Positions 16,873 to 34,017 of a stretch of 64,000 nucleotides of DNA are shown in pieces. Under the pieces are notes generated by a model. It worked only from the letters and a program-made list of their open reading frames with translations. It was not told the DNA's origin and did not search any database. Every line of letters begins with the position of its first letter. The first letter of the stretch is position 1. Source of the DNA: Bartonella sp. HY038 (lineage in GTDB: Bacteria; Pseudomonadota; Alphaproteobacteria; Rhizobiales; Rhizobiaceae); the NCBI RefSeq assembly GCF_014117425.1, contig NZ_CP059725.1, positions 496,001-560,000 on the forward strand, read 5' to 3'. The position numbers and the translations under genes were made by a program.

Positions 16873-16905
16873 GCGATAAGCACCCTATATATTCGCTCTT
16901 TGATT

Positions 16906-16937
16906 TGACGGTTAGTTTATCAACTAGCCGTCATTTT
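16906..16937. terminator. Bidirectional terminator EVE gene / MFS gene
   Basis: A 12-bp stem, TGACGGTTAGTT with AACTAGCCGTCA (one G-T pair), loop TATC. Confidence 0.85.
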
Positions 16938-16959
16938 GTGTGGTTTTGCGTTTTAAAGC

Positions 16960-18285: not shown

Positions 18286-18335
18286 TTTATCCTCCTCCGT
18301 TAGTTTTAAAAATTTTTTTCGATTGGAATCCTTTG

Positions 18336-18350
18336 TATACATATTGTATA
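18336..18350. promoter_or_regulatory. Putative GntR operator in the MFS promoter
   Basis: Perfect inverted repeat TATACA, TAT, TGTATA. Related sites ATACA-AAA-TGTAT (19449-19461) and ATACA-AAA-TGCTT (19471-19483) precede the GntR gene. Confidence 0.5.
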
Positions 18351-18424
18351 ATGTAAATTTTAAATGATAAGTTACTGATAGTTATGACCTATCAATTTTT
18401 GAAATTTAGGTTTTTAAGCTTTAG

Positions 18425-19333: not shown

Positions 19334-19448
19334 CGTCTCTTCCTAACATGCAGCAGATTTTTAAACGGTGAAAATGGAATCAAGTTTGTGCTTTGCTTTT
19401 ATATGCCCCTATCCAAACTTGAAATATCCTCCGTTAAATATCTATATT

Positions 19449-19483
19449 ATACAAAATGTATTATGAAAATATACAAAATGCTT
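19449..19483. promoter_or_regulatory. Putative GntR operators in the EamA/gntR divergent region
   Basis: ATACA-AAA-TGTAT (19449-19461, perfect) and ATACA-AAA-TGCTT (19471-19483, half degenerate), 22 bp apart, i.e. about two helical turns. They resemble the palindrome at 18336-18350 and probably mediate autoregulation. Confidence 0.5.
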
Positions 19484-19558
19484 GACGATGAAAAAAAAAG
19501 TCGTAATGTAGGCTATAGTTTGCTAAACCTTTGATAGTTTATAAAATGGTTGAGCAGC

Positions 19559-20242
19559 ATGAAAAACGGAAAAACTATTTTCTATGAAGACCTTAAGCGC
19601 CAGATTTTAACAATGGAGCTTGATCCTGATGAAGACCTTGAGGAAATTCGGTTGGGGCAGGAATATGGTCTTTCAAGAACGCCAGTTAGGGAGGTGCTGC
19701 AAAGGCTAGCAGGAGAGGGCTATGTCGAGTTGCGAGAAAATCGCGGTGCGCGTGTTTCGCCAATGAATCATTCAACAATACGCCATTTTTTTCTGGTGGC
19801 GCCAATGATTTATGCGGCAATTGGTCGTCTTGCTGTTCAAAATTATAAACAAAAGCAACTTGCTGAATTGGTAAAAACACAGGAAGACTTTACCAAAGCG
19901 AGCAAGGATCATGATGCATTAAATATGGTACTTTCTAATAATCGCTTTCATGAGATTATTGGTGAAATGTCGGGAAATGTTTATTTGCAAGCAAGCCTTG
20001 GCCGTTTGTTGATTGATCATAGCCGCATTGGTTGTGTTTTTTATCGGCAAAATAGCAGTCAAGACATGACATCACGGGTGCAAGATGCAATTGCCCATCA
20101 TGATGGTTTTATCGCCGCAATTATTGCCCGCGATGAAGATGCTTTTGTGGCGCTGGTTTTCCAGCATTGGGAATTGTCGCGTGAAAGAATGGAAATGTTT
20201 GTCATGCCCCATAGCATGAAAGCTGACATTAACCAGCTATAA
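19559..20242 (+). CDS. GntR-family transcriptional regulator (FadR/FCD subfamily)
   Basis: 227 residues. The N-terminal winged helix-turn-helix (~8-68) includes DEDLEEIRLGQEYGLSRTPVREVLQRL, a textbook GntR recognition motif that spans residues ~24-50. The remainder is an all-helical FCD-type effector domain with NNRFHEIIGEMSGN (~122-135) and HHDGFIAAI (~180-188), whose His/Asp residues usually bind a metal and a carboxylate ligand. The start could also be a TTG three codons upstream (19550). It probably represses the adjacent transport and catabolic genes until the substrate appears. Confidence 0.88.
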   Translation: MKNGKTIFYEDLKRQILTMELDPDEDLEEIRLGQEYGLSRTPVREVLQRLAGEGYVELRENRGARVSPMNHSTIRHFFLVAPMIYAAIGRLAVQNYKQKQLAELVKTQEDFTKASKDHDALNMVLSNNRFHEIIGEMSGNVYLQASLGRLLIDHSRIGCVFYRQNSSQDMTSRVQDAIAHHDGFIAAIIARDEDAFVALVFQHWELSRERMEMFVMPHSMKADINQL

Positions 20243-20345
20243 TTTAGCTCACGCGCTTTAAACCTTAAAAAATCTATCAATCATTAAACGCTCTTACCCT
20301 TGTGGGAGCGAATAGAAAGCTTTTATACTTTTTTTGGAGGAAAAA

Positions 20346-21248
20346 ATGGACTTTAAAGGTATTTTCACCCCGGCAATCACGCCTTATGATGAAAATGGTG
20401 AGATTAATTGGCAAGCTTTTGCAAGCGTTATTGAAAGCCTTATTGAAGCGCAAGTGCATGGCATTATTATTGGTGGGTCAACCGGTGAATATTATGCGCA
20501 AACCCAAGAGGAGCGCATTAAACTTGCCAAAACCGCCAAGGACATCATCGGCAATCGCTTACCACTGATTATTGGCACTGGTGCTATTCGCACTGAAGAC
20601 GCAGTTATTTATGCAAGCCATGCCAAACAAATCAAGGCTGATGCCATTCTTGTCACATCACCGCCTTATGCGCTACCAACCGAGGCTGAAAACGCCCACC
20701 ATGCTTTAACCATTGATAAAGCGGCTGATTTACCCATCATGCTTTATAATTATCCAGGCCGCATGTCGGTATCAATGGGCGATGATTATTTCAAATTGGT
20801 AAGCGCTTCTAAAAACGTCAAAGCGATTAAAGAAAGTTCAGGCGATGTTAATCAAATGCACCTTCTTGCTTGCCAATATCCCAATATTGCCATGTCATGT
20901 GGGTGGGACGATCAGGCGCTTGAATTTTTTGCTTGGGGCGCGCAAAGCTGGGTTTGCGCCGGTTCTAATTTTTTGCCAAAAGAACATATTGCACTTTATA
21001 AGGCTTGCGTCATTGACGGTAATTTCACCAAGGGGCGTAAAATCATGGCGGCAATGATGCCATTCATGAATTTTCTTGATGGCGGCAAATTTGTGCAGTC
21101 GATTAAATATGGCTGCGAATTGGCAGGGTTTAATGCCGGTAAAGTGCGTGCGCCATTATTGGGGCTTGATGACAATGCCAAGCAACGCCTTAGCGATATT
21201 ATTGCCGCATTAAAAGCCGATATTCGCGCCATTGAAGCAGGGGCATAA
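20346..21248 (+). CDS. DapA/NAL-superfamily lyase (dihydrodipicolinate synthase family)
   Basis: 300 residues, a class I aldolase-type TIM barrel. The Schiff-base lysine is K162 in KAIKESSGD, the assisting tyrosine is Y134 in LYNYPGR, and the carboxylate-binding GGSTGEYY loop is at 43-50. It is not the biosynthetic DapA by context, since it sits with an aldehyde dehydrogenase and an amine oxidase. Candidates include a 1-pyrroline-4-hydroxy-2-carboxylate deaminase or another keto-acid aldolase/hydratase. The start ATG at 20346 follows TTGGAGGAA, a strong ribosome site. The next gene begins 1 bp after its stop. Confidence 0.9.
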   Translation: MDFKGIFTPAITPYDENGEINWQAFASVIESLIEAQVHGIIIGGSTGEYYAQTQEERIKLAKTAKDIIGNRLPLIIGTGAIRTEDAVIYASHAKQIKADAILVTSPPYALPTEAENAHHALTIDKAADLPIMLYNYPGRMSVSMGDDYFKLVSASKNVKAIKESSGDVNQMHLLACQYPNIAMSCGWDDQALEFFAWGAQSWVCAGSNFLPKEHIALYKACVIDGNFTKGRKIMAAMMPFMNFLDGGKFVQSIKYGCELAGFNAGKVRAPLLGLDDNAKQRLSDIIAALKADIRAIEAGA

Positions 21249-21249
21249 G

Positions 21250-22746
21250 ATGACGGAGCTGTTAACTCGCGATCAATATTATAGCCTTGCGCGTTCTATA
21301 AAATACCCAACCAATGCTTTTATTAATGGGCAATTTCAACCCTCCTTATCGGGCGATAGGTTTTTGAGTGTAAATCCTGCCACCGGCGAAAAAATCACTG
21401 ATATTGCCGATTGTGCAAATAGCGATGTTGATTTGGCAGTAAAGGCTGCCCGCCATGCTTTTAATGCTGGAACATGGAGCAAGCTTAGCCCGTTAGAGCG
21501 CAAAACAACTATCTTGCATTTTGCCGATATTATTGAAGAGCATTTGCAAGAATTGGCAGTTTTGGAAAGTTTGGATAGCGGTAAGCCAGTCAGCGAATGT
21601 GTTGGTGTTGATGTGCCAGATACTATTCATACTTTGCGTTGGCATGGCGAACTGATTGATAAAATTTACGACAACACCGCACCGGTGGGGGATGAAAAAA
21701 TCGCCATGGTTATTCGCGAGCCAATTGGTGTGGTTGGTCTTGTTTTGCCATGGAATTTTCCCTTACTTATGCTTGCATGGAAAATTGGCCCTGCTTTAGC
21801 AGCAGGATGCAGTTTAGTTATTAAGCCAGCTAAAGAAACCACTTTAACCGCGCTAAAACTGGCAGAACTTGCGCAAAAAGCTGGTATTCCTGCCGGCGTT
21901 ATCAATGTTGTGCCAGGTGGTGGGCGAGCAGTGGGTGAGCCGATTGGCCGCCATATGGATATTGATATGGTAAGCTTTACCGGCTCGACAGAGACGGGGC
22001 GGCTATTTCTCCATTATGCCGCTGACTCCAATTTAAAGCGCATTGTGCTTGAATGTGGTGGCAAAAATCCTGCTGTGGTTATGGATGATGTCAGCGATAT
22101 TGATGCGGTGGCTGAACAAATTGTAAGCGGTGCTTTTTGGAATATGGGTGAAAACTGCTCGGCAACCTTACGCCTTATTGTCCATGAAGCAATTAAAGAT
22201 AATTTGTTGACGCGCATTTTGCATCATATGAAAGCTTGGAAAATGGGCGATCCCTTAGATCCTCAAAATCGGCTTGGGGCTTTGGTAAGTTCTGCCCATT
22301 ATGACAAGGTTTTATCTTTCATTAAAACTATTGAGGAAGAAAATCTTGATCTTATCGCCGGAGGAGAGGCGAAAGACGATATTTATATATATCCAACGGT
22401 GGTTGATAATGTTGGGGTGCAAAGCAAGCTTTTTAACGAAGAAATCTTTGGGCCAATTCTTACCATTACCAGTTTTAGCACCATAGACCAAGCGATTACC
22501 CTTGCTAATGATACACCTTACGGGCTAGCGGCTAGCGTTTATACTGCAAATCTTCGTCATGCATTTACCCTATCAAAGGCAATTCGTGCCGGCATTGTGA
22601 CGGTGAATTGCTTTGGCGAGGGCGATGCCACCACACCCTTTGGCGGATATAAGGAATCTGGTTTTGGTGGGCGTGATAAATCGCAATGGGCTCATGATCA
22701 ATATACCGAATTAAAAACCATTTGGATCGATATTTCAGCGTCTTAG
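21250..22746 (+). CDS. NAD(P)-dependent aldehyde dehydrogenase (PuuC/GabD-like)
   Basis: 498 residues, full length. The cofactor motif PWNFPLLMLAWKIGPAL begins near 168, and the catalytic residues are E268 (in LECGGKNP) and C303 (in GENCSA). The FTGSTETGR Rossmann-type segment lies at 243-251. It oxidises an aldehyde to the acid. Its closest feel is PuuC-like omega-amino or keto-semialdehyde dehydrogenases. It follows the lyase by 1 bp, so they are cotranscribed. Its TAG stop is formed by the first bases of a RIME-like repeat (22744-22849), implying the original 3' end was replaced. Confidence 0.9.
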   Translation: MTELLTRDQYYSLARSIKYPTNAFINGQFQPSLSGDRFLSVNPATGEKITDIADCANSDVDLAVKAARHAFNAGTWSKLSPLERKTTILHFADIIEEHLQELAVLESLDSGKPVSECVGVDVPDTIHTLRWHGELIDKIYDNTAPVGDEKIAMVIREPIGVVGLVLPWNFPLLMLAWKIGPALAAGCSLVIKPAKETTLTALKLAELAQKAGIPAGVINVVPGGGRAVGEPIGRHMDIDMVSFTGSTETGRLFLHYAADSNLKRIVLECGGKNPAVVMDDVSDIDAVAEQIVSGAFWNMGENCSATLRLIVHEAIKDNLLTRILHHMKAWKMGDPLDPQNRLGALVSSAHYDKVLSFIKTIEEENLDLIAGGEAKDDIYIYPTVVDNVGVQSKLFNEEIFGPILTITSFSTIDQAITLANDTPYGLAASVYTANLRHAFTLSKAIRAGIVTVNCFGEGDATTPFGGYKESGFGGRDKSQWAHDQYTELKTIWIDISAS

Positions 22747-22849
22747 AGCGTTTTTTAAGAAAAGTGTGAAGCGGCTTTCGGGCAAAAAACGAAGGTAAAC
22801 AATGGATTAGAGCGCCGATCTAATCCAATTAGATCGAAATGCGCTCTAG
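22744..22849 (+). repeat. RIME/Bru-RS-like repeat, copy 3, overlapping a stop codon
   Basis: Starts TAGAGCG; its first three bases are the aldehyde dehydrogenase stop. It ends GCGCTCTAG 19 bp before the oxidase start, so it fills the whole intergenic space of this operon. Confidence 0.8.
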
Positions 22850-22868
22850 GGCGCGATGGGGAGGAATA

Positions 22869-24194
22869 ATGCAAGAGATAGAGCGTTTTCCAGCCAAGGC
22901 GGGAGATCTTGGCTGGTTTGAATTGTCACGTTTTAAAAACCATTCATTTACCAATCATGATTTTATGGAAAAGGATTATGATTTTGTCATTATTGGCGGT
23001 GGGTTTGCGGGGGTTAACGCAGCGCATCGCTTAGCCGAGCACCGACCACAAGCAAAAATTGCCCTTTTTGAAGCCTTGCAAATTGGTATGGGTGATAGTG
23101 GGCGCAATGCTGGGTTTTTAATTGATGTTCCCCATTCTTTTGGTGAGCCGGGGATTACGATTGCCGATCATAAATATCGCTTTCATTTAAATAACCTCAT
23201 CATCAAACGCTTGCGCAAGCTTAAAAATGACCATCAGCTTGCAATTGATTGGCTGGATTGTGGCAAATATCTTGCCGGCCACGAGCAAAAATATTTAAAA
23301 AATCTTGATGCAATGGCAACAATCCTTGATCAAATTGGTGCGTCAAGCCAATTTGTCGAGCATGACGAATTAGTCACGCGCATGGGCACGCATTATTATA
23401 AGCGCGCTTTATATACGGCTGGCACTTGCCTTATTAATCCATCTGAAACGGTGCGGGCTTTTGCCAGTGTTTTGCCTAAAAATGTCGATGTTTTTGAACA
23501 GTGTCCTGTCTTAAAATTTGACGATGGCAAAGTGGTAACCATTACTCTCACCAATGGCAAAACCGTAAAAGCTGGGCAATTATTGCTATTGGCGGGGGTT
23601 TTTATAGATCGTTTTGATATTGAGAAAAAAGGGCGGATGACGCCTGCAGGTAGTTTTGCAGCTTTTAGCCGTGAATTAAATAAGGATGAACTCGCATCGA
23701 TTAAAAATATTGCGCCATGGGGTTGCACTTCCGCCCATGCAGCAGGTACTACGGTGCGCTTTACATCAACCAACCGCATTTTTGTGCGCAATGGCTTAAC
23801 CTTTCCCACTCATTTAACCCTGTCACCAGAACGGGTTTTTAAAGCACGTAAACAATTGCGCAAAGCCTTTGAAAATCGCTTTCCAAGTTTAAAACATGTT
23901 AATTTTGAATATGTCTATGGTGGTATGATACCGCTTACGATGAATGGCGATTCCTTCTTTTTTCAAAAAAGCCCCCATATTTATGCCGCGGCAGTGGGGG
24001 ATGGCTGCGGGCTAACACGAAGTTCGATGCTTGGCACTTATCTTGCGGATCTTGCTTGCAATGTTGATAGTGAAGAAATGCGCTATTTGCTAAAAACCAG
24101 TAATCCCAAATGGTGCCCACCAGAGCCGATTAAAACCATTGGTGCAACCATTCGTATGAGCATTGAAGAGTGGCAAGCCACAGGAGAAATATAA
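22869..24194 (+). CDS. FAD-dependent oxidoreductase, DAO/PuuB (OrdL) family
   Basis: 441 residues. The FAD-binding beta-alpha-beta motif IIGGGFAGVNAAHRLAE is at ~41-57, with the acidic end in ALFEA and the flavin-contact motif GDSGRNAGFL nearby. These are typical of gamma-glutamylputrescine oxidase-like DAO enzymes that oxidise secondary or primary amines. About 35 residues precede the Rossmann fold. I chose ATG 22869 because GGGGAGGA lies 5-6 bp upstream; the earlier in-frame ATG at 22839 lies within the RIME repeat. With the aldehyde dehydrogenase it could carry an amine through aldehyde to acid. Its stop lies in a 16-bp tandem repeat. Confidence 0.87.
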   Translation: MQEIERFPAKAGDLGWFELSRFKNHSFTNHDFMEKDYDFVIIGGGFAGVNAAHRLAEHRPQAKIALFEALQIGMGDSGRNAGFLIDVPHSFGEPGITIADHKYRFHLNNLIIKRLRKLKNDHQLAIDWLDCGKYLAGHEQKYLKNLDAMATILDQIGASSQFVEHDELVTRMGTHYYKRALYTAGTCLINPSETVRAFASVLPKNVDVFEQCPVLKFDDGKVVTITLTNGKTVKAGQLLLLAGVFIDRFDIEKKGRMTPAGSFAAFSRELNKDELASIKNIAPWGCTSAHAAGTTVRFTSTNRIFVRNGLTFPTHLTLSPERVFKARKQLRKAFENRFPSLKHVNFEYVYGGMIPLTMNGDSFFFQKSPHIYAAAVGDGCGLTRSSMLGTYLADLACNVDSEEMRYLLKTSNPKWCPPEPIKTIGATIRMSIEEWQATGEI

Positions 24195-24229
24195 AGCGGA
24201 AGAAATATAAAGCGGGAGAAATATAAAGA
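24184..24229 (+). repeat. Stop-codon-spanning 16-bp tandem repeat (3 units)
   Basis: Units GAGAAATATAAAGCGG, AAGAAATATAAAGCGG and GAGAAATATAAAG. The first contains the stop codon of the FAD oxidoreductase. Confidence 0.85.
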
Positions 24230-24342
24230 ATTTCCCGCATTTTCGCGCCATAACTTGGTCAATGAAGCCAAAACAGTTAAGCGGCATTTGGTTATATTGC
24301 CGATTGCCAACCTTTGCTATCACATTTCATAATGCTTAGTTT

Positions 24343-25023
24343 TTACAATTCGCCTGCAACAGCAATAAAATGCACGGAAACCACTTGGGCATGAGGAAAC
24401 CGCAATTCCTTTGGCGGATTAAATTGTGATAGCACCAATTCTTGCGCATTGTGGCGCACAAAACGTTTGACAAAAGCATGAGGGGTTGAAAATTCATCCA
24501 TTTGGATTTGCGCCACCACATAATCGCCTTGCTTTACACGCCTTTGCGGGTTGAGAAAAACCACCTCACCATCTTCATAGCGCGGCGACATAGAGTCTCC
24601 ACTCACCACAACGCCATAAGCATCTTTTACATCACATAATTGTGGTGGGCATATAACATCATAAAGCACGTTGCCATTGAGCAAAAACTCTCCATCAACC
24701 CCTGCAACCGCTTGGCCATAAATAGGAATTTTGCGGCTTGTATCAAAATGGATGGGACCCACTATTTTAGCATTGGGCGCGTCAAGGCTAAGCCTCGCGG
24801 CTTGCTCTGGTGTGCTTGCCTCTAAAAGCTCTGCCATATCTAACTCAAGCGCTTGGGCTAATTGCGCAAATTTATCGTTCCTAAAGGATTTTTTACGCCC
24901 CGATAGGAAATCTCGAATATAGCCTTTTTCAAGCCCAACCTTGGTGGCAGCTTCAACTGCACCGATATTGAGCGCTTGCAAGCGTGCTGCAATAATTTTA
25001 CGTAATTGTTCCATATTTGTCAT
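24343..25023 (-). CDS. Phage CI-like repressor, XRE helix-turn-helix plus S24 peptidase domain
   Basis: 226 residues. The helix-turn-helix at ~12-60 is followed by a linker and a LexA/UmuD-type S24 domain. The catalytic serine is in VVVSGDSMSPRYEDGE (S144) and the catalytic lysine in HAFVKRFVR (K186). This is a prophage master repressor that would be inactivated by RecA-stimulated self-cleavage. The usual Ala-Gly or Cys-Gly cleavage site may be AVAG at ~105-108. It is divergent from the phage-like genes and faces an operator cluster at 25034-25100. The start is ATG 25023 or 25014. Confidence 0.9.
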   Translation of the reverse strand: MTNMEQLRKIIAARLQALNIGAVEAATKVGLEKGYIRDFLSGRKKSFRNDKFAQLAQALELDMAELLEASTPEQAARLSLDAPNAKIVGPIHFDTSRKIPIYGQAVAGVDGEFLLNGNVLYDVICPPQLCDVKDAYGVVVSGDSMSPRYEDGEVVFLNPQRRVKQGDYVVAQIQMDEFSTPHAFVKRFVRHNAQELVLSQFNPPKELRFPHAQVVSVHFIAVAGEL

Positions 25024-25033
25024 TATAGGATAT

Positions 25034-25100
25034 TTCCAACTTTTTTGAAAGAGGGAAAATTACACTTGCAAAGTTGGATAAATACAACTATTATCCAACT
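25034..25100. promoter_or_regulatory. Operator cluster between repressor and divergent phage genes
   Basis: A perfect 10-bp inverted repeat, AGTTGGATAA (25072-25081) and TTATCCAACT (25091-25100), with a 9-bp spacer. A further half-site TTCCAACT is at 25034-25041. A fourth AGTTGGATAT occurs at ~25325-25334, just before the gene at 25357. This is the expected arrangement for a CI-type repressor controlling both directions. Confidence 0.65.
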
Positions 25101-25364
25101 ATGAAAAAACGAGTCGTACAATATTTTCTAGCTCATTACCTCAGATTTTCTGAAATAGATAAACTCAAACTTTTTACTAAAAATAACTTTAAAAACAATA
25201 TGAAAGCGAGCATTGGCACGCTGATCCCTCAATTCTTAACCCATTATCAAAGCCTAAAAAATTACAAAGCCAAAATTATAAGTGGTTTTTATACCGCTTT
25301 ATCCCTTTATTTGCTGCTACCAATAAGTTGGATATTAATAAAGTTGAGGTGGCGCAATGAGTGA
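25101..25364 (+). CDS. Small basic protein with C-terminal hydrophobic segment, doubtful
   Basis: 87 residues, very basic N-terminal two-thirds and one hydrophobic stretch near residues 67-82. The ATG directly abuts the operator half-site and has no Shine-Dalgarno sequence, so it would need leaderless translation. It overlaps the next gene by 8 bp. It occupies the place of a cro-like gene but shows no helix-turn-helix. It may be non-coding leader sequence instead. Confidence 0.35.
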   Translation: MKKRVVQYFLAHYLRFSEIDKLKLFTKNNFKNNMKASIGTLIPQFLTHYQSLKNYKAKIISGFYTALSLYLLLPISWILIKLRWRNE

Positions 25365-25587
25365 AACATTTTCACAAGCGGCAAAGCGGCTATTAGCGGG
25401 GCTTGATGCCAAGGCCAAGCTTGTGCATTTGCCAGTAACACCGGCAGGGCGCGCATTATTACGCCACGTCCTACAGCAAAATAAAATGAATGGAGCTACA
25501 TTTTCTAACCGCAATTTTGACCATGAGGCCGCCACTCATTTTTCGCAAAAAATGGGTCGTTTTAACCTTAAAAAAAGTGAGCATTAG
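25357..25587 (+). CDS. Hypothetical small phage-type protein
   Basis: 76 residues, soluble, basic, with no recognised domain. The ATG follows GAGGTGG at good spacing. The gene ends 3 bp before the helicase gene, so it is part of an early operon under the operator at 25034-25100. Its position, between repressor and replication genes, suits a small regulatory or replication accessory protein; the function is unknown. Confidence 0.6.
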   Translation: MSETFSQAAKRLLAGLDAKAKLVHLPVTPAGRALLRHVLQQNKMNGATFSNRNFDHEAATHFSQKMGRFNLKKSEH

Positions 25588-25590
25588 TTT

Positions 25591-27039
25591 ATGGCCGAAT
25601 TTTCAAATGCATCGGTTAATCAAAACGCTTTTATACCCGAAATCGAGCAAGATTTGCTTGGTGGTTGCCTGTTGGAAACAGAATGTTTCATCAAGGCATC
25701 GGCTATTTTATCGGCTGATAATTTTATTGAGCCACTGCATCAAAGTGTTTTTAATGCCATGCAGCGCGGCTTTGATACCTATCAATCAACCACCTTGCCA
25801 ATTATTGTAAAAGGCTGCCCGCAAGGGGTTGAAGAACAATTAAAAGCGCGTGGCTTTGTTAATTGGGCAGAATATTTGGTGCGCCTTACCATGAGCACCA
25901 TTACCCGTCCTGGGAGTGTTGAAGAACGGGCAATGCGCGTGCTTGAACAATGGGGCAGGGTGCAATTATCCGATCACGCGCAAAATATCGCTATTGCTGC
26001 ACAAGACCCGTTAGCATCGCTTCAAGGGCTTGTTTCTTCAACTGTTGCAGCCTTTGATGATATTTTGGTAAAATGCCGTAAATCCACCAGCAGCAATGCT
26101 AGAACATCCCTTTCACGCGCCATGCAAAGTGCTTTTATTGCTGCAAGAAAAGCAGCAAGCTCTAACCATGGTTTAACGGGTTTAAATTGGGGGCTTGTTG
26201 ATTTAAATGCGATTACCGGTGGTATTCAAAAACGTGATTTAATTTTAATTGGTGCGCGCCCATCGATGGGTAAAACCACTTTTGCCACCGCTATTGCCCG
26301 TGCGGTTGCTAAATCTGGCAAGCATGGCGTTGGTATTATTTCGCTTGAAATGGATAAGGATAAGCTAGCGGCGCGTATGGCAAGCGATATTGCTTTTGAT
26401 AAGCGCATGGATATTCCCTACACCCATATTATCAATGGCAAAATTGCCCTTAATGATTTGGAGCAAATGGAAGAAATTTGCCAAGCTATTGGTAATTTGC
26501 CGATTTTGATTGATGATCAATCAGGCATTACCATTGCACAAATCCGCGCCAAGGTTGAAGCGATGAAAGCTGAATTTATCAAAGGCGGCGCTGAATTATC
26601 GGTGTTGATTATTGACCATTTGGGGCTTATTCGCGCGAGCAACCGCTATAGCGGCAACCGCAATAATGAAATTGCCGAAATGACCGCAACCTTAAAAGCC
26701 ATTGCCCGCGATTTTGATATTGCTGTGGTGGTGCTATCGCAGCTTAACCGCGAGGTGGAAAAGCGCGGTGATAAACGCCCTCAACTATCCGATTTGCGCG
26801 ATTCTGGTGCCATTGAGCAAGATGCTGATACGATTATGTTTTTGCATCGTGAAGCCTATTATCTTGACCGCGAAAAATATGCCGATTTTGACAAGGAAAG
26901 TGCGCGTGTCGAGCGCTTAATTGACACGCAAAATACAATGGAAATTATTGTGGCCAAACAGCGCAATGGCCCGTTGAAAACCATTGGGGTTTTTGCCGAT
27001 ATGGCATGTGCAGCAATTAGAAATGGAGCAAGACCATGA
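25591..27039 (+). CDS. Phage-type replicative DNA helicase (DnaB family)
   Basis: 482 residues. The N-terminal DnaB helical domain (~15-125) begins with the typical IEQDLLGGCLLE pattern. It is followed by a RecA-like helicase core with Walker A GARPSMGKTT (221-230) and Walker B VLIIDHLGLI (~328-337). The motif VLSQLNREVEKRGDKRPQLS and the arginine-finger region follow. It unwinds DNA at a replication fork. It is not the housekeeping dnaB by context (repressor upstream, initiator-like gene downstream with ATGA overlap). It is intact, with no frameshift. Confidence 0.92.
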   Translation: MAEFSNASVNQNAFIPEIEQDLLGGCLLETECFIKASAILSADNFIEPLHQSVFNAMQRGFDTYQSTTLPIIVKGCPQGVEEQLKARGFVNWAEYLVRLTMSTITRPGSVEERAMRVLEQWGRVQLSDHAQNIAIAAQDPLASLQGLVSSTVAAFDDILVKCRKSTSSNARTSLSRAMQSAFIAARKAASSNHGLTGLNWGLVDLNAITGGIQKRDLILIGARPSMGKTTFATAIARAVAKSGKHGVGIISLEMDKDKLAARMASDIAFDKRMDIPYTHIINGKIALNDLEQMEEICQAIGNLPILIDDQSGITIAQIRAKVEAMKAEFIKGGAELSVLIIDHLGLIRASNRYSGNRNNEIAEMTATLKAIARDFDIAVVVLSQLNREVEKRGDKRPQLSDLRDSGAIEQDADTIMFLHREAYYLDREKYADFDKESARVERLIDTQNTMEIIVAKQRNGPLKTIGVFADMACAAIRNGARP

Positions 27040-27992
27040 GTATAAAAGCTGTTGCTTGGGTTTTAGATCAAACAATAAAAGACCCAACCGCCAAACTGGT
27101 GCTTATATCATTAGCCAATTGCTTAAACAGCAAAACAGGCAAATGCTTCCCAACTTTTGAGCGCATCAGCCAAGAAAGTAGCTGCGCGCGCAGCACGGTT
27201 ATTCGCAAATTGCAATGGCTTGAGCAAAATGGCTGGATTAGCATTAACCGTGAATTTGGTGATGATGGCCGCCAATTAGCAAATAGCTATATTTTGCATT
27301 TTGAGGGTGGCAATTTGCTATCCGTGGATAGCAATTGCAAAGGCGAGGGTGGCAAGCTGCAACGGGCGGGTGTTTTGGCACATACGGGGGAGGGTTGCAT
27401 TGTTGATACTCCTTATAAGAAACTGGAAGAAATACCAGAAGATTATTCTTTGTCGGAAAAGCATTCCGACCCACAGGAAAACTTAGGCGAAAACCAAAAA
27501 GAAAAATCACAAGAAGAATTATTCGCGTCAAAAGCTAAAAACAAAAAGCCAAACTATCCACAAACATTTGAAAATGCTTGGAAATTATACCCAACTGACT
27601 GCAATATGTCAAAAAAACAAGGTTTTAGCGAGTGGCAGCGTTTAGATGCGAGCGACCGCGCTTTGCTACTTGCTGCTATCCCCAATTTTAAGGCGCATTG
27701 CCAGAAAAACCCAGATTATCGCCCAGTGCATTTTTGCCGTTTTATCAGCCAAAGGCGCTTTGATGGCTTTCAACCCCAAGAGGTAAAACCTTTGGCGCAC
27801 GATTGTAATATTAGCGGCTTTGATGATCAACGCTGGCAAAAAATATTAGATTTTGGCCGCAGCCGTAAAGAGTGGCAGGTAAGCCTTTGGGGCCCAATGC
27901 CCAATCGTCAAGGCTCACTTGTGCCAGCTAAGCTTGTTTTGCCAAATGATGGCATAGGCTGGGCTGAAACATATTTAGCCGCCGCGCAATAA
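27036..27992 (+). CDS. Helix-turn-helix replication protein (phage initiator or helicase-loader like)
   Basis: 318 residues. The N-terminal winged helix (HTH_36 type, ~15-75) has the recognition helix SCARSTVIRKLQWLEQNGWI. The middle ~100-180 is low complexity and hydrophilic. The C-terminal part (~185-250) with WKLYPTD, KKQGFSEWQRL and RFISQRRFDGF is common to phage replication O-like proteins. It overlaps the helicase by 4 bp. The coding sequence contains direct repeats and a perfect palindrome (27303-27360) that could be the replication origin, as in lambda O. The stop lies in a short duplication (CAATAACG twice). Confidence 0.78.
   Translation: MSIKAVAWVLDQTIKDPTAKLVLISLANCLNSKTGKCFPTFERISQESSCARSTVIRKLQWLEQNGWISINREFGDDGRQLANSYILHFEGGNLLSVDSNCKGEGGKLQRAGVLAHTGEGCIVDTPYKKLEEIPEDYSLSEKHSDPQENLGENQKEKSQEELFASKAKNKKPNYPQTFENAWKLYPTDCNMSKKQGFSEWQRLDASDRALLLAAIPNFKAHCQKNPDYRPVHFCRFISQRRFDGFQPQEVKPLAHDCNISGFDDQRWQKILDFGRSRKEWQVSLWGPMPNRQGSLVPAKLVLPNDGIGWAETYLAAAQ
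27303..27360. promoter_or_regulatory. Origin-like repeat cluster inside the replication gene
   Basis: Two direct repeats, GAGGGTGGCAATTTGC (27303-27318) and GAGGGTGGCAAGCTGC (27345-27360), 42 bp apart. They bracket a perfect 9-bp-arm palindrome TTGCTATCC/GGATAGCAA (27315-27334). The position within an initiator-like gene matches lambdoid origins; function is inferred. Confidence 0.4.
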
Positions 27993-28005
27993 CGCCACAA
28001 TAACG
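27984..28005 (+). repeat. Stop-codon-spanning short duplication after the replication gene
   Basis: GCGCAATAACG followed by CCACAATAACG, an ~11-bp degenerate duplication. The first unit contains the TAA stop. Confidence 0.5.
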
Positions 28006-28037
28006 CAATTTATCAATTTAAAAATAGGAGAATGATC

Positions 28038-28640
28038 ATGGCACAACAAAAAGCAAAAACAAAAGCTCAACATGTTAAAAAAAGAGGCGGTCGTCCACGC
28101 ATACATGGCAAATTGCGCGAGCCTAATGGGCGTGTTTCAAGGGCTAAAGGGCCACAAGAACCAATTGATAAATTAGCAATTGAAGTGCGGGCGCGCCGCT
28201 TTGGTTTAAATGTTCATGAGGCGAGAAACCCGATGGCCGCGACTTTTATTGGCCGTTTAGCGATGAAAGGCGCTGCCAACGGTTTAAGCCAAGATCAATA
28301 TGATGCCGCCCTGCAATTTTTAAAAATCCGCAATGATTATCGCTGTTCGCTACTGTCGCCTGGTGCATTTTATGAAAAAACAGGGCAGTCCATGAATGTC
28401 GATAATATGCAAGAATACACCGATTGGGTGTTGAGGGCGCGCCAGCGTTATCAAAATGCGATGAAAGCCATACAAGAAGCGCAATTTGATAATGGCCATG
28501 AAAATCTTTATGCAGCACTGCAATATGTGATTATTAATGATGTTGAACTTGAAAATTTAATTGGCGCCGCCCGCATGGTTTTAAATGCATTAGTGCGCCA
28601 TTTTTGCGCCAAAACTAACGCTCCTCGCCGTTTTTCATAA
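28038..28640 (+). CDS. Hypothetical basic phage-type protein
   Basis: 200 residues. The N-terminal ~45 residues are very basic (KKRGGRPRIHGK), suited to nucleic-acid binding. The rest is helical. It lies between replication genes and capsid-like genes, where a small terminase subunit or late regulator is often found, but I see no diagnostic motif. The ATG at 28038 is preferred over 28032 because AGGAG is 8 bp upstream of the former and only 2 bp from the latter. Confidence 0.7.
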   Translation: MAQQKAKTKAQHVKKRGGRPRIHGKLREPNGRVSRAKGPQEPIDKLAIEVRARRFGLNVHEARNPMAATFIGRLAMKGAANGLSQDQYDAALQFLKIRNDYRCSLLSPGAFYEKTGQSMNVDNMQEYTDWVLRARQRYQNAMKAIQEAQFDNGHENLYAALQYVIINDVELENLIGAARMVLNALVRHFCAKTNAPRRFS

Positions 28641-28660
28641 AAAATATTTTTGTCAATTTT

Positions 28661-28738
28661 TTTGTTGACGAAGCATATGTCATAAACCTCTTATATAAAT
28701 TGTGGCTAAAGAACAAAACATGAACTAAGCCGCAATTG
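28661..28738 (+). promoter_or_regulatory. Conserved promoter-like box and leader hairpin, copy 1
   Basis: TTGACGAAGCATATGTCA, then CTTATATAAATTG running into a hairpin at 28698-28737 (arms AATTGTGGCT / AGCCGCAATT, one G-U). The loop contains GAACAAAACATGAA. The same block recurs before the next two genes. Confidence 0.65.
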
Positions 28739-28833
28739 CTAAGACGCCTTCAAAACTTAGCAGTTATGAAATTTATACTACAAAGGCTTTTTCTTAAAAA
28801 GCTAGCGTGTGATTTAAATGAAAGGAATTTAAA

Positions 28834-29292
28834 ATGGCAAATATTATTCAAACCAACAGTGAAGGACGTTATTTGGTTAAAGGCGGGGTGGCACTCAATG
28901 TCATGTCCCATACTGCCTTCACCAAGAATGGTTTGATCGTACCTTTGGGGCATCCTGATGGTATTGTTTATGCTGGACGCATAGTAAGTCAAGATGATCC
29001 AGATAATACCAATGGCCAAGATGGTGATGTTGCAGTAAACGTTCAAAATTATAGTAGTTTGCAATTTTTTGCGTCAGATTTAGCCAAAGAATTTGATGTA
29101 AAAATTGAAAATCTCAATCAGCAAGTTTACTTGTCTTTTCCTGAAACTCTTCATACTACATCAGGTACGGGGCGTGTGCCTATTGGCACTTTAACAAGTG
29201 TGAAAAAAAATAATAATACGGACCCAACTCGTGATCCTAATGAAATTGTTTATGAAATCAATACAAGCAAAACTGCGCCGATTTTTCGCTAA
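28834..29292 (+). CDS. Capsid-cement/DUF2190-like paralogue 1
   Basis: 152 residues, all-beta in appearance. It shares with the two genes downstream the motifs L.VP.GHPD..VYAG, DNTNGQDGD and G.GR.PIG. This layout (gain of a G-x-L-x beta roll, a central charged loop, then GRFPIG) resembles DUF2190-type phage head-decoration proteins, but the match is by eye. A clear ribosome site (GAAAGGAATTTAAA) precedes the ATG, identical in the other two copies. It has its own promoter-like leader and would be a separate transcript. Confidence 0.75.
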   Translation: MANIIQTNSEGRYLVKGGVALNVMSHTAFTKNGLIVPLGHPDGIVYAGRIVSQDDPDNTNGQDGDVAVNVQNYSSLQFFASDLAKEFDVKIENLNQQVYLSFPETLHTTSGTGRVPIGTLTSVKKNNNTDPTRDPNEIVYEINTSKTAPIFR

Positions 29293-29382
29293 TTTTGGGT
29301 TGGCGCTATGCTGATAAAGCGTTGCTGTAATAGCGATGCTTAAAGCCAAATTCTCAACAAAATATAAAAAATTTGCTTAGTT

Positions 29383-29458
29383 TTGTTAACGAAGCGTAAG
29401 TCAAAAAATTCTTATATAAATTGCGGCTATGGAACAAAACGTGAATATAGCCGCAATT
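29383..29458 (+). promoter_or_regulatory. Conserved promoter-like box and leader hairpin, copy 2
   Basis: TTGTTAACGAAGCGTAAGTCA, CTTATATAAATTG, then the perfect 12-bp stem AATTGCGGCTAT / ATAGCCGCAATT (29419-29458) with loop GGAACAAAACGTGA. It lies 87 bp upstream of the second paralogue. Confidence 0.7.
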
Positions 29459-29544
29459 GCTGAATAAATTTAAACTATCAAATTAAAAACTGCCGCTGCT
29501 AAAACGAGGCGGGCAAAACGAAATTTACTTGAAAGGAATTTAAA

Positions 29545-30063
29545 ATGACAACTACAAATTTATCAATTGGTTATACTTACCCAGAATTAAATCGTGGTTT
29601 AAAAGGTGGTATCAAGCTCGATTTTGATATGTTGGTCGCCTATACAGAAGAACGCTATTTGGTGCCTATCGAGCATCCAGATGCAGCCAGTTTTGCTGGC
29701 ATTACGCTAGAAAAATATGTTGGTGATCCTGAACTTGAGGTAATGTATAACTCTACGCACATGGAACAATTTTTAGATAATAGTAATGGTCAAGATGGCG
29801 ATAAAATGGGTAATTTTTATAGACCTATCTGCGGTTTTCCTATTAGTGATTTTGCGTCTTTGGAGTTTAGCCAGCAGGATTATGGTCAAATTGTTTATGC
29901 ATCCGCTAATCGCACATTCCATAAAACACCAGGTAAAGGTCGTTTTCCCATCGGTATTTATCTCATGACTGGCCCTGCAAAACACAATATATCTGGTGAA
30001 CTTTCCATCGAACTTTTCCACTGGATTGATACAAGTGTAAATTTGCCACGCTATAAAGCGTAA
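29545..30063 (+). CDS. Capsid-cement/DUF2190-like paralogue 2
   Basis: 172 residues, the longest of the three. It has LVPIEHPDAASFAG, DNSNGQDGD and GKGRFPIGIY, aligned with the neighbours. An insertion of ~20 residues sits before the DNSNGQDGD loop (DPELEVMYNSTHMEQFL region). There is no signal peptide. Likely a structural beta protein derived from a phage head. It is preceded by the conserved leader and followed by its own terminator at 30084-30110. Confidence 0.75.
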   Translation: MTTTNLSIGYTYPELNRGLKGGIKLDFDMLVAYTEERYLVPIEHPDAASFAGITLEKYVGDPELEVMYNSTHMEQFLDNSNGQDGDKMGNFYRPICGFPISDFASLEFSQQDYGQIVYASANRTFHKTPGKGRFPIGIYLMTGPAKHNISGELSIELFHWIDTSVNLPRYKA

Positions 30064-30083
30064 GCCCATATTTTAAAATATAT

Positions 30084-30110
30084 AAAGGCAGCCACATTGG
30101 TTGCCTTTTT
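30084..30110 (+). terminator. Terminator after paralogue 2
   Basis: Arms AAAGGCAGCC and GGTTGCCTTT (one G-U), loop ACATT, then TT. Confidence 0.8.
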
Positions 30111-30124
30111 CCAAACAGCCTATT

Positions 30125-30200
30125 GGCTTGGCAAAGCATAAGTCAGAAACTTCTTATATAAATTGCGGTTATAGAACAAAACGTGAATATAGTCACAATT
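30125..30200 (+). promoter_or_regulatory. Conserved promoter-like box and leader hairpin, copy 3
   Basis: GGCTTGGCAAAGCATAAGTCA, written here as GGCTTGGCAAAGC + ATAAGTCA, then CTTATATAAATTG and a hairpin at 30161-30200. The arms AATTGCGGTTAT / ATAGTCACAATT keep pairing mostly through G-U changes. The loop is again GAACAAAACGTGAA. Confidence 0.6.
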
Positions 30201-30285
30201 ACTGTATAGATACAGAATAAAAAATTAAAAATGCCGCTGCAAAATCAGGACAGGCGAAATGAAATTTACTTAGAAGGAATTTAAT

Positions 30286-30765
30286 ATGATTATTAAAGGT
30301 GTAATTGAGGCTCATATAGATAATTACTATCCAGTAAAAGCGGGTGTTAATTTGAGAGGAGGTAATTTATTGGCATTAACAAAGAATAGATTGCTTGTTC
30401 CAATTAATCATCCTGATGCTGTTGTATTTATTGGTTACGTGTCAACACAATACGAAGAGGGCATGTATGACAATACAAATGGAGAAGACGGCGATATTAA
30501 AGTTCGACCAATGCAGGGGGGAGAAGTAATGTTTATGCCTGATGCTTTGGTAAAGCCATTAGACGTAACAATTGTTAATATTGGCCAAACTATTTTTGCA
30601 TCAAATCATGATGCGTTACATTTATCACCGGGTGAGGGACGTTTTCCAATAGGCATTTTAAAAGACATTGGCCCAGCTGCGCAATGGTCTATTCCTGTTG
30701 GGGGAGATGCCAATGCAATTTATTATCAGCTCTCCCTAAACACTTTGCCTGTATTCTATTCATAA
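30286..30765 (+). CDS. Capsid-cement/DUF2190-like paralogue 3
   Basis: 159 residues with LLVPINHPDAVVFIG, DNTNGEDGD and GEGRFPIGIL. It is closest in layout to paralogue 1. Near the N-terminus VKAGVNLRGGNLLAL matches the common G-rich start of capsid-cement proteins. The ribosome site is AGAAGGAATTTAAT. It ends in a hairpin-rich non-coding region (30766-30862). The three genes have diverged well beyond recent duplication while their leaders and ribosome sites stayed alike. Confidence 0.75.
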   Translation: MIIKGVIEAHIDNYYPVKAGVNLRGGNLLALTKNRLLVPINHPDAVVFIGYVSTQYEEGMYDNTNGEDGDIKVRPMQGGEVMFMPDALVKPLDVTIVNIGQTIFASNHDALHLSPGEGRFPIGILKDIGPAAQWSIPVGGDANAIYYQLSLNTLPVFYS

Positions 30766-30818
30766 ATAAGATTTAAGGTTTAGCCCTAAATCTTATAGTT
30801 CGGGCACTATTTACGAAA

Positions 30819-30862
30819 AAAATGTTGGGCAGTAACTAAAAAAAATCTGCTCAACATTTTTT
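30819..30862. terminator. Terminator between paralogue 3 and the 47-aa gene
   Basis: Arms AAATGTTGGGCAG and CTGCTCAACATTT with a T-run. Its right arm abuts the stop codon of the small minus-strand gene, so it serves convergent transcripts. Confidence 0.75.
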
Positions 30863-31004
30863 AATGCTGATCGACCGAAACACCATTTTCGTTAAGTTTT
30901 AGTTCAATGCCTGATGGTTGTTTTTCTTGCTTATAGGTGTAGTAACCAAAACCAATAACAACGACAATAAGCGCACCAATAATGAGATAAAGAAATCGGT
31001 TCAT
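30861..31004 (-). CDS. 47-residue single-pass membrane protein
   Basis: A short gene easily missed: it starts MNRFLYLIIGALIVVV, has one membrane helix (~4-22), then a YYTYKQEKQ basic segment and a short tail ending SVDQH. The ATG at 31004 has AGGATC upstream at proper spacing. Similar ~45-50-residue proteins are, as I recall, widespread in Rhizobium/Brucella relatives, of unknown function. It marks the edge of chromosomal-type sequence after the phage-like segment. Confidence 0.75.
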   Translation of the reverse strand: MNRFLYLIIGALIVVVIGFGYYTYKQEKQPSGIELKLNENGVSVDQH

Positions 31005-31171
31005 AATTTAGATCCTAAAAATATTGTAACTTTAGATCTATATGGAGCGAAAATAAGCGATTCAAGGTGCGGCTAAACATCATTATTAATATTGGCAAGC
31101 TGTAAGTTGAGGTAAATGACTGGTTTTGCTCTCTTTATTGTGACTTGCGGTTAAGCTAAATATGGATATTG

Positions 31172-31732
31172 ATGGGTTATATTTCATCTGCGAGTAGTTA
31201 TATTATGACATCATTATTTGTTAGAACGAACCCTAAAGATCGGCTATTTGGCGTTGCTGTAATTGTCGGTTTAGCCGGTGGCATTATATCCGGTTTTGTT
31301 AAATCTGGAGTTGAAGGTGTTCTGCCTCCGCGCACCCCCGATAGATTGATCCCACCTGCGGAAGTGTTGCAAAGCTTTGGTATTGATTCCAGCAATATGA
31401 TTTATCATTATTCAGATCATATAGTTAATTGGGGCGTATCGGGCGTTCATTATTTATTTTCGATTGTTTTTGCTGTTGCTTACTGTATCGCCGCTGAAAT
31501 TTTTCCAAAAGTTAAACTTTGGCAAGGTCTTTTATTTGGGGTTGTCGTGACAATCGGTTTTCATGGCTTGGTGTTACCAGTCGGTGGCTGGGCGCCGCCA
31601 ATTTGGAAATTGCCTTTTGACGAATTATTTTCAGAAAGTTTCGGGCACCTAGTTTGGGCATGGACGATTGAAATTTTTAGACATGATTTAAGATATAGAA
31701 TAAGTGGTAAAACGGATGTAATGGCAGCTTAA
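31172..31732 (+). CDS. YagU-family inner-membrane protein (DUF1440)
   Basis: 186 residues with four hydrophobic segments. The stretch FGVAVIVGLAGGIISGFVKSGVEGVLPPRTP near the N-terminus (split: residues ~27-57) and the HXXXWAWTIEIFRHDLR end match E. coli YagU, an inner-membrane protein linked to acid resistance. Homology suggests the true start may be the Met at 31205 (MTSLFVRTNP). The function in this organism is unknown. Confidence 0.82.
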   Translation: MGYISSASSYIMTSLFVRTNPKDRLFGVAVIVGLAGGIISGFVKSGVEGVLPPRTPDRLIPPAEVLQSFGIDSSNMIYHYSDHIVNWGVSGVHYLFSIVFAVAYCIAAEIFPKVKLWQGLLFGVVVTIGFHGLVLPVGGWAPPIWKLPFDELFSESFGHLVWAWTIEIFRHDLRYRISGKTDVMAA

Positions 31733-31747
31733 TAATGAGTTGTAAGC

Positions 31748-31803
31748 ATTGGCAGACAAGCAAAGATATAAGATTAGGCTAAACTATATGCTTGCCTGCC
31801 AAT
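31748..31803. repeat. Long inverted repeat after yagU-like gene
   Basis: Arms ATTGGCAGACAAGCA and TGCTTGCCTGCCAAT, 15 bp with a single A/C mismatch, 26-base loop, no U-run. It could be an mRNA 3' stabiliser or a small transposon remnant. Confidence 0.6.
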
Positions 31804-31842
31804 AGCTTAAATTGCTAACCATATTACTTTTACATTAAACAT

Positions 31843-31866
31843 AACCGCCTTTATGAGGCGGTTTTT
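31843..31866 (+). terminator. Terminator after yagU-like gene
   Basis: AACCGCC TTTATGA GGCGGTT followed by TTTT. Confidence 0.85.
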
Positions 31867-32145
31867 TGCGTAAAATAACCTTGATGACATCTAAAATAAC
31901 CGCTAATGCCAGTTAAAAAGTGGCTAAAATGATGCTAAGGTGTATGGCAATTATGTTCTTTGTCTTTGTATCTATATTGTCATTGGTAAACTGTGAAATA
32001 AGTTCCAAATATTCTATCAACTGGGCTCGTGCATAAAGACTAATCGCTGCGCATTGGTAGCAGAAGACCAAAAGCGCTTAAAACAATTAAACAATCAAAA
32101 AATTGACATTGAAAATACGGTATAAGGCTTAGGCCAAATTTATTG

Positions 32146-32466
32146 CTACCACCACCCTCTTGGAGTAACGACAGGTCTAAAGAAAATATGGGCATTTTTG
32201 TCTAATGTAAAACCCAAATTTTGCATGCATAAACTTGTTTTTACATTTACGTTATTCTTAGCTGCATCGTTCAAGGTGTAATTGATAATGTTATTTTTAC
32301 TCTTTTGGAAGCAATCACCAAGCGCTTTTTGGGTATCTTCAAGGCTTACCCCTGGTTTATGAAAAGAGGCGGCAGTTGGTAAAGGAGGTTGAATAACTTG
32401 CGGCTGACAACCAATTAAAAGGCATAATAAAGGAAAATAAACTAAGGAGAATAATATTTTTTTCAT
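32146..32466 (-). CDS. Small putative lipoprotein
   Basis: 106 residues. Residues 1-19 form a signal peptide ending in the lipobox LLIGC (Cys20), so it is probably lipidated by Lgt/LspA. Asp is not at +2, so it may be sorted to the outer membrane. The mature part is polar, has two further cysteines (near residues 52 and 80) that could form a disulphide, and ends FFRPVVTPRGWW. Family not recognised. It stands alone. Confidence 0.75.
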   Translation of the reverse strand: MKKILFSLVYFPLLCLLIGCQPQVIQPPLPTAASFHKPGVSLEDTQKALGDCFQKSKNNIINYTLNDAAKNNVNVKTSLCMQNLGFTLDKNAHIFFRPVVTPRGWW

Positions 32467-32856
32467 GTTTAATCCTTTGTATAAATAAACTTAAATAGAT
32501 ATATATAGTACTCAATTATACTAATTGCTGCAATCATTTATAAAATAAATCTATACTTTAGCTTATCGGAATTTATTAATATTGAGCCATGTAGAAGTGT
32601 CAATATGTCACAAATTGCAAAATAAAAGCGGTTCACTGCCAAATAAACTATCAACTTTAATGCAATTTAAGCCGCCTATGCGCAGGCTACAGCCATAAAA
32701 CAGCCAATGGGCAATCTTTGTTTAAGTAATGCAAAGAAAACTAAATATTAAAACCTTTTATTGCCATTTGTTGTCATGATATTAGCTAAAAAGATAATAA
32801 AGCCATTGTGGATAGATGTTTTCAATCTTTAAAGCATTTTGATATTTTTGAAAAAT
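32467..32856. other. Intergenic gap between lipoprotein gene and tRNA-Gln
   Basis: AT-rich and holding the lipoprotein promoter; no ORF or repeat recognised. No duplicated tRNA-Gln end was found here or near 24.2 kb, so no att site can be assigned. Confidence 0.45.
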
Positions 32857-32930
32857 TGGCTGGGGAACCTGGATTCGAACCAAGACTAGCGGAGTCAGAG
32901 TCCGCTGTTCTACCCTTAAACTATTCCCCA
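32857..32930 (-). tRNA. tRNA-Gln (anticodon CUG)
   Basis: 74 nt including encoded CCA. The acceptor stem pairs TGGGGAA with TTCCCCA. The anticodon arm is GCGGA-CTCTGAC-TCCGC, so the anticodon is CTG, reading CAG. The T-arm is CTTGG-TTCGAAT-CCAGG-like. It lies at the boundary between the accessory segment (24-32 kb) and core genes. Confidence 0.93.
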
Positions 32931-33329
32931 AGACAGATTAGCGGCAAATATATTGAAGCCGAATCTTCTAGTGCGGTGACTTCTATCATATTTTTCAAGC
33001 CAATCAAGATAAAAAGCATCAATTGCATATTCTTTTTGCTCTGTTTTTAAATTCTATTGCGCAAATATGTCAGCGACAAAATATCGTCTTTTTGACTAAC
33101 TTTTATAATCATTGGTAAAATAAATTGATGATCGCCGTTTAAACGCCGTAATTTTTGGCGATGAAAACTGCAAGCCTTGATGATGTTTTTTGCTTTTTTG
33201 CAGAAAAATACGTCAAAAAGTGATAAAAATTTCAAGTTTATCGTTTGTTAACCATAGTTATTGAATTGCCTTTAATGAACTTAGGCTAAAGACAAATTAT
33301 CAACAGACCAACTAAGGGAGTGCCGGCAC
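32931..33329. other. Intergenic gap upstream of pal
   Basis: Contains the divergent promoters of tRNA-Gln and pal. An AT-rich minus-strand reading frame (33047-33235) has no ribosome site and is not believed. Confidence 0.4.
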
Positions 33330-33869: not shown

Positions 33870-33891
33870 ATCTTGGCTTTATTGCGGGCTT

Positions 33892-33996
33892 TAGAGCGCA
33901 TTTCGATCTGATTGGATCAGATCAGCGCTTTAATCCCTTGTTTACACCGCGTTTTTTGTCCGAAAACCGCTTCACACTTTTCTAAAAAACGCTCTA
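33892..33996 (-). repeat. RIME/Bru-RS-like repeat, copy 4
   Basis: Inverted copy, TAGAGCGCATTTCGATC to AAAAAACGCTCTA, between the pal stop and its terminator. Confidence 0.8.
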
Positions 33997-34017
33997 AGAT
34001 TTAAGTATTTATAAAAA

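Follow-up and report, generated by a model that had tools for sequence, protein, structure and literature searches.

A maintained phage-derived block with replication and decoration-type genes, and without capsid genes of its own, in Bartonella sp. HY038

The stretch of 64,000 nucleotides analysed here (positions 496,001 to 560,000 of contig NZ_CP059725.1; hereafter the window) belongs to the genome of Bartonella sp. HY038 (G000; 3.60 Mb, four contigs), an insect-type Bartonella relative. It contains a phage-derived unit of approximately 7.4 kb (window 24343-31732), in which a CI-type repressor, a helicase and a replication initiator are joined to a gene at the position of a phage late regulator (p202) and to three paralogues of capsid-decoration type (cem1-cem3). 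The best explanation, to which we assign a probability of about 0.45, is that this block is a stable, integrase-less phage module in which a switch is combined with units for replication and for late decoration, and that it relies on capsids encoded elsewhere. Since the block is intact yet encodes no capsid, the probable targets of its products are particles of another origin, for instance those of the resident gene transfer agent (GTA) or of an incoming phage. The joint survival of phage early genes and decoration genes in the absence of a capsid is poorly covered by the categories of prophage remnant, satellite, GTA and run-off-replication (ROR) region. Judged by titles and the opening of abstracts, none of the listed matches in the literature on the Bartonella GTA (BaGTA) and run-off replication, phage satellites, DUF2190 capsid proteins and hoverfly Bartonella describes such a module.

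Gene content and maintenance of the block

The block begins with a minus-strand gene (24343..25023) encoding a CI-type repressor with a helix-turn-helix and an S24/LexA-like domain (Peptidase_S24, 1.4e-12; phrog_4, 6.7e-24; 85.7% amino acid identity in G001, a second genome of the genus). It is followed by an operator-like inverted repeat (25066..25106; 16-nt arms around 9 nt), which has a counterpart in G001 and which CI would bind. Rightward, on the plus strand, come a 76-amino-acid open reading frame (ORF), the first of the operon (25357..25587; no Pfam or PHROG family match), a DnaB-type replicative helicase (25591..27039; DnaB_C, 3.5e-79), a primosomal/O-type replication initiator (27036..27992; HTH_36, 1.3e-12; phrog_270, replication initiation, 1.2e-23), p202 (28032..28640; phrog_15385, 2e-53), cem1 (28834..29292), cem2 (29545..30063), cem3 (30286..30765) and, as the final gene of the conserved block, a DUF1440 protein gene (31169..31732; PF07274, 3.2e-49; phrog_25162, 5.3e-48), which is syntenic in G001. 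An earlier note on this DNA had recognized the repressor with its operator, the helicase and an initiator-like gene, and each of these is borne out by the family matches and the inverted repeat. The core of the module that it outlined also stands; p202 was overlooked and the DUF1440 end (stop at 31732) was left off. As the note had claimed, no integrase, terminase, portal or capsid occurs among the nine block proteins scanned (24343-31732; ORFs of 60 or more amino acids). These proteins also include no GTA-type structural/packaging cluster, which sits elsewhere in the genome. By its Pfam and PHROG matches the block has its own regulator and replication genes and lacks a complete structural set.

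All block reading frames are open, and G001 keeps the same gene order (C1:1442703-1450046), with an identity of 80.6% over window 24350-25155 and 89.1% over 25559-31732; being shared by a second species, this order is not due to chance. The ratio of nonsynonymous to synonymous divergence (dN/dS) between the two genomes, calculated for eight block genes (all except the 76- and 47-amino-acid ORFs), ranges from 0.07 to 0.34: 0.085 for CI, 0.082 for the helicase, 0.192 for the initiator, 0.087 for p202, 0.245, 0.239 and 0.343 for cem1, cem2 and cem3, and 0.071 for DUF1440. The values of comparison genes are 0.050 for pal and 0.095 for xerD (both named by eye), and 0.025 and 0.027 for the GTA terminase and capsid. 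The common gene order and these ratios indicate a maintained unit rather than fresh decay, in line with the view of the earlier note that the intact frames are unlike random decay. Of 61 genomes searched, cem1 has matches in two, namely G000 itself and G001; the database protein matches come from Bartonella sp. HY329, HY406 and HY761.

The same data bear on the idea that the block is a truncated prophage remnant, whose late genes were replaced by the decoration array through recombination and which is kept for a few useful genes (repressor immunity, DUF1440). The helicase-then-initiator order is that of complete prophages (phiLM21 and locus L201, described below), and synonymous divergence (dS) is 0.77-1.16 for CI, cem1, cem2 and DUF1440 compared with 0.09-0.24 for the helicase, initiator, p202 and cem3, a contrast also known from phage mosaics that recombine. 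However, the frames are intact, dN/dS is well below 1 even in cem1-cem3 and a second species has the same architecture, and we therefore regard a remnant as doubtful.

The variable segment of the window that holds the block (16871-32856) ends at the 3' end of a tRNA-Gln(ctg) gene (32857..32930, minus strand), the sole match of an Rfam scan of 24000-33000. Homology with G001 restarts at this point: the right flank from 32856 matches G001 C1:985190 onward, away from the G001 block, and beside tRNA-Gln G001 has a different segment with urease and urea-transport-like genes (by eye). At the G001 block, the flank shared with G000 stops at L008:3524, just beyond the 3' end of a tRNA-Lys. These flanks place the block in tRNA-adjacent variable segments, at a different chromosomal place in each species, which may also be the outcome of chromosomal rearrangement. 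Besides the phage block, the window segment holds largely metabolic genes (by eye), so that the block need not be a separate insertion of its own; for 16871-24343 no G001 match was obtained among the first-look candidates scored in the G001 comparisons (40 of 187 and 40 of 202). In neither species are the tight edges of the block flanked by an exact 11-14-nt repeat, a wider test in G001 gave one 13-mer, and the 3' end of the tRNA gene has no long second copy in the window. Between tRNA-Lys and the block, G001 also encodes a 532-amino-acid protein of a phage-associated family (L008:4023-5621; phrog_1847, 2.1e-138), which has no counterpart beside the window block. Within the block itself, a 47-amino-acid ORF with one hydrophobic stretch (by eye) lies on the minus strand between cem3 and DUF1440 (30861..31004), and it has a counterpart in G001.

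The decoration-type paralogues and their leaders

All three paralogues match phrog_1731, 'virion structural protein' (cem1, 4.4e-10; cem2, 1.7e-5; cem3, 4.3e-9). The earlier note had likened them to DUF2190 capsid-cement proteins. The decoration type is upheld by this profile and by the Mu-head neighbours of relatives, whereas the Pfam cement model PF09956 matches neither the paralogues, nor the other window proteins, nor any protein of G000; among the relatives, this model matched 1 of 21 at 0.02 and one Mu-like homologue at 0.0028 (18.5 bits, compared with a cut-off of 24). A profile search across the order matched 22 further genomes of 397, and in the six distant-relative loci that were read the homologue adjoins Mu-like genes for the protease, the gpT capsid or both, as confirmed by Pfam in five loci and judged by eye in the sixth. 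Mu-like head modules hold one copy beside the protease and major capsid genes; the block, in contrast, has three copies away from any head genes, each with its own leader. Relatives sought with back-translated patterns in genome and viral contigs were not confirmed, and tblastn against phage records found none.

The structural comparison suggested in the earlier note was made with the cem3 model (m07a68b0506d8). Phage or virus entries, nearly all of them head proteins, fill the top 11 rows of its Foldseek list and the top 16 of its VIA list, at VIA Z values below 8; two of the 16 VIA rows are phi29 gp12, an appendage. The assignment of the paralogues to the capsid-decoration type is thus supported by the profile and the neighbourhood of relatives and, less firmly, by the predicted fold.

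Each paralogue is preceded by a near-identical 82-nt unit on the plus strand (28664..28745, 29385..29466 and 30127..30208), consisting of a TATATA stretch and a hairpin with 13-nt arms and a conserved 14-nt loop. Searched with up to 3 mismatches, this motif occurs three times in G000 and three times in G001, in all cases upstream of the paralogues and nowhere else in either genome; a backwards control and two other genomes gave none. Over the six sequences 93.6% of cells pair in the hairpin, compared with 22-50% when slid, and shuffled sequences reached the percentage paired in 29 of 500 cases and the covariation score in 22 of 500. The hairpin likely forms in RNA, although it may instead be a DNA site. 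A terminator scan of 24200-32000 gave 7 predictions against a shuffle mean of 9.6, that is no excess; as neither this nor a promoter scan of the same region did better than shuffles, the leaders are defined by their conservation.

The paralogues differ strongly in their divergence from G001: cem3 is conserved (93.1% identity), while cem1 and cem2 (58.6% and 63.3%) diverge fast. In 100-column steps, identity falls to 46-82% over most of cem1 and cem2 and is 88-93% in the steps holding the three hairpins. Strain HY761 apparently has a protein equal to the window cem2 (by eye; one sequence on two contigs) together with a cem1 relative that is 84% identical. Such divergence between conserved leaders, with this database relative, is consistent with a swapping of alleles at cem1 and cem2 while the leaders stay unchanged. 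A more far-reaching possibility, which we consider speculative, is that the block is a domesticated 'coat wardrobe'. The module would then be inducible and replicate itself, and its sole late product would be three decoration proteins, two of them swapped between strains as cassettes behind unchanging leaders; these proteins would re-dress particles of a GTA or phage encoded elsewhere, altering the stability of the particles or the cells that they reach.

Relatives of p202 and of the early region

The predicted structure of p202 is mostly helical (pLDDT 80.7), and a Pfam comparison of 23 family members produced scattered weak matches (best 0.012). Of 394 family genomes, 20 have a match to p202. 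A single-protein search of viral contigs returned nothing, while the alignment found 81 loci, 80 of which were kept. Of the viral loci, 72 extend 5 kb or more beyond p202, and in 31 of these a terminase gene follows on the same strand, 0.7-6.1 kb after p202; because the panel comprised two terminases, the remaining 41 loci are not negatives. AT-rich palindromes lie downstream of p202 in several viral contigs, with a sequence different from the leaders, and the leader loop motif was not found convincingly downstream of p202 in other loci. A kinship of p202 with GafZ/DUF6456 was suspected; it gained no supporting result and is not claimed. RogA is said to take part in GTA control in Caulobacter.

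The block p202 falls in a clade of 20 rows (100/97) together with four of the five solitary CI-p202 pairs of related genomes. This clade includes no viral-contig row, and at least 10 of its rows are metagenomic proteins known as proteins alone. One such pair, a second and divergent one, lies in G000 itself (C1:3193579-3195468; L017:11580-13469). The G001 pair (C1:435135-436915; L049:7136-8916) is situated 38 kb from the GTA terminase of that genome; beside neither of these two pairs were other phage genes recognised. Similar pairs were seen in L050, L051 and L055, the L055 pair being separated from GTA terminase genes by approximately 5 kb. By eye, ordinary genes flank the pairs in L049 and L050. 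The solitary CI-p202 pair may regulate the Bartonella GTA, for which it is a candidate. In its arrangement the block resembles the control of the Caulobacter GTA by GafY/GafZ (available text of PMC11150451), where a repressor and a late activator/antiterminator likewise stand outside the structural cluster.

At 1e-10 the initiator has matches in 11 of 394 family genomes, G000 and G001 included, and none in genus g115. Locus L201 encodes a CI-like protein, helicase and initiator, followed by terminase and portal. The L082 contig combines a close CI, the initiator and p202 with GTA-like terminase (72%), portal (61%) and capsid (69%) genes, with no helicase match. Early and late-regulator genes related to those of the block occur in some BaGTA-like phages that could serve as helpers. 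Sinorhizobium phage phiLM21 (NC_029046) also resembles the block, having a DnaB helicase (44.9% identity over 99% with that of the window) and then a primosomal protein (3.2e-11 with the window initiator). These are followed in phiLM21 by a DnaA-like protein, an antiterminator and the terminase, so that a regulator occupies the late position before the terminase. Unlike the block, phiLM21 is a complete phage, and the p202 profile misses its annotated antiterminator; when eight proteins were searched with the cement profile, its head decoration protein reached only 0.014.

Inside the initiator gene the GC content dips locally to 0.30, and a two-copy 16-nt direct repeat (27303-27318 with 27345-27360) is partly kept in G001; repeats in the gene are two-copy only, with no iteron array. 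A DnaA-box-like site (by eye) lies in the dip at 27554-27562. The same gene carries an antisense 12-of-12 sigma-70 consensus (27584-27612, minus strand), unchanged in G001.

Possible capsid partners and known systems

S24 repressors hold their operator until they are inactivated. In the module that we favour, CI would likewise keep the operator shut; once CI is inactivated, the rightward operon would yield the helicase and initiator, which would start DNA replication at an origin within the initiator gene or close to it. Protein p202 may then turn on the three separate units with their common promoter/leader design, and the decoration proteins are predicted to bind the exterior of a capsid.

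A whole-genome search with phrog_2, PF05065 and PF10124 detected one large terminase (phrog_2) in G000 and one in G001, in each case that of the GTA cluster, and neither HK97-type (PF05065) nor Mu-type (PF10124) capsids in either genome. The GTA cluster of G000 has terminase, portal, major head protein (phrog_334), tail and endolysin genes. Of 15 of its genes, 13 have matches in G191 and 12 in G383, two probable genomes of Bartonella proper, with gene order otherwise preserved (the fibre-gene match in G191 spans only 79 residues and overlaps another gene), and since the order and sizes fit, by eye, the table in the available text of PMC3610622, it is taken as the BaGTA cluster. The regulatory kinship points to BaGTA-type particles and the decoration-family kinship to Mu-type heads. 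We slightly favour BaGTA-type particles, those of the resident GTA or of BaGTA-like helper phages, as the probable partner; the main alternative would be an incoming phage. If the decoration proteins coat the GTA, they would form a separately regulated, exchangeable outer layer of it and offer a route to ask what the coat does in transfer; if their targets are incoming phages, the block would be a capsid-directed satellite or defence without integrase.

Several observations weigh against the proposed module and its favoured partner. The GTA cluster and the block are distant from each other: they lie 0.97 Mb apart in G001 and, in G000, 1.03 Mb if contig C1 is circular (2.33 Mb the other way). 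The capsid type of the cluster (phrog_334) differs from the Mu gpT capsids neighbouring the paralogue relatives, and a search for the leader motif gave nothing at this cluster. The promoter scan of 24200-32000 gave 21 predictions against a shuffle mean of 22.7, with the leaders unlisted. Hairpin covariation over six sequences is modest, and its count of double-change pairs was matched by 279 of 500 shuffles. The VIA Z values of the cem3 model stay below 8, and p202 has no solved-fold match at E 0.001, its role being assigned by position. Finally, the same-genus comparison is made with one genome, G001.

The leading rival, which we nevertheless judge unlikely, is a phage satellite or capsid-interference island, whose decoration proteins would alter or poison the heads of an entering helper or invader (e.g. 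with a Mu gpT-type capsid) and which may itself be packaged by it. The decoration family accompanies Mu-like heads in relatives, yet G000 and G001 gave no match to such a capsid; three paralogues, two of them strongly diverging, fit several or changing partners, and the block occupies different tRNA-adjacent variable segments in the two species. Like P4, PICI and PLE, as far as available descriptions go, it has its own regulator and replication genes, an incomplete structural set and genes likely to act on capsids. It differs from them in having three decoration paralogues and no integrase or attachment repeats found. Because of the latter, a satellite, raised as a possibility in the earlier note, is unsupported in its classical form, while a domesticated or satellite-like capsid-accessory role may still apply; the block also has no packaging gene, and no helper is known.

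The earlier note had also raised a possible link of the module to a GTA, with mention of run-off replication in Bartonella. A run-off-replication origin serving the GTA, of Bartonella type and acquired independently of the mammal-associated lineage, would explain a phage-derived helicase and initiator without late phage genes, or a complete phage, in a GTA-bearing Bartonella relative, as described in the available parts of PMC3610622 and PMC6899734; the GC dip, DnaA-box-like site and partly kept repeat of the initiator gene and the p202 clade shared with solitary pairs are consistent with it. In the available text of PMC3610622, however, the ROR region is defined by an O-like initiator upstream of the helicase and the presence of a phage exonuclease, and lies close to the BaGTA cluster (median 32 kb). 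In the block the initiator follows the helicase, the scanned proteins gave no exonuclease match, the GTA is approximately 1 Mb or more away, and a gene at the late-regulator position and decoration genes are added. Kinship with the ROR region is therefore unsupported, and with no iteron array found we hold such an origin to be very improbable.

Two dispersed repeats were observed elsewhere in the window. One, of approximately 106 bp and matching on both strands, is present at about 22-129, 11859-11962, 22743-22848 and 33891-33997 and in more than 30 places in G001; the other, of approximately 275 bp (about 142-422), has about a dozen G001 places.

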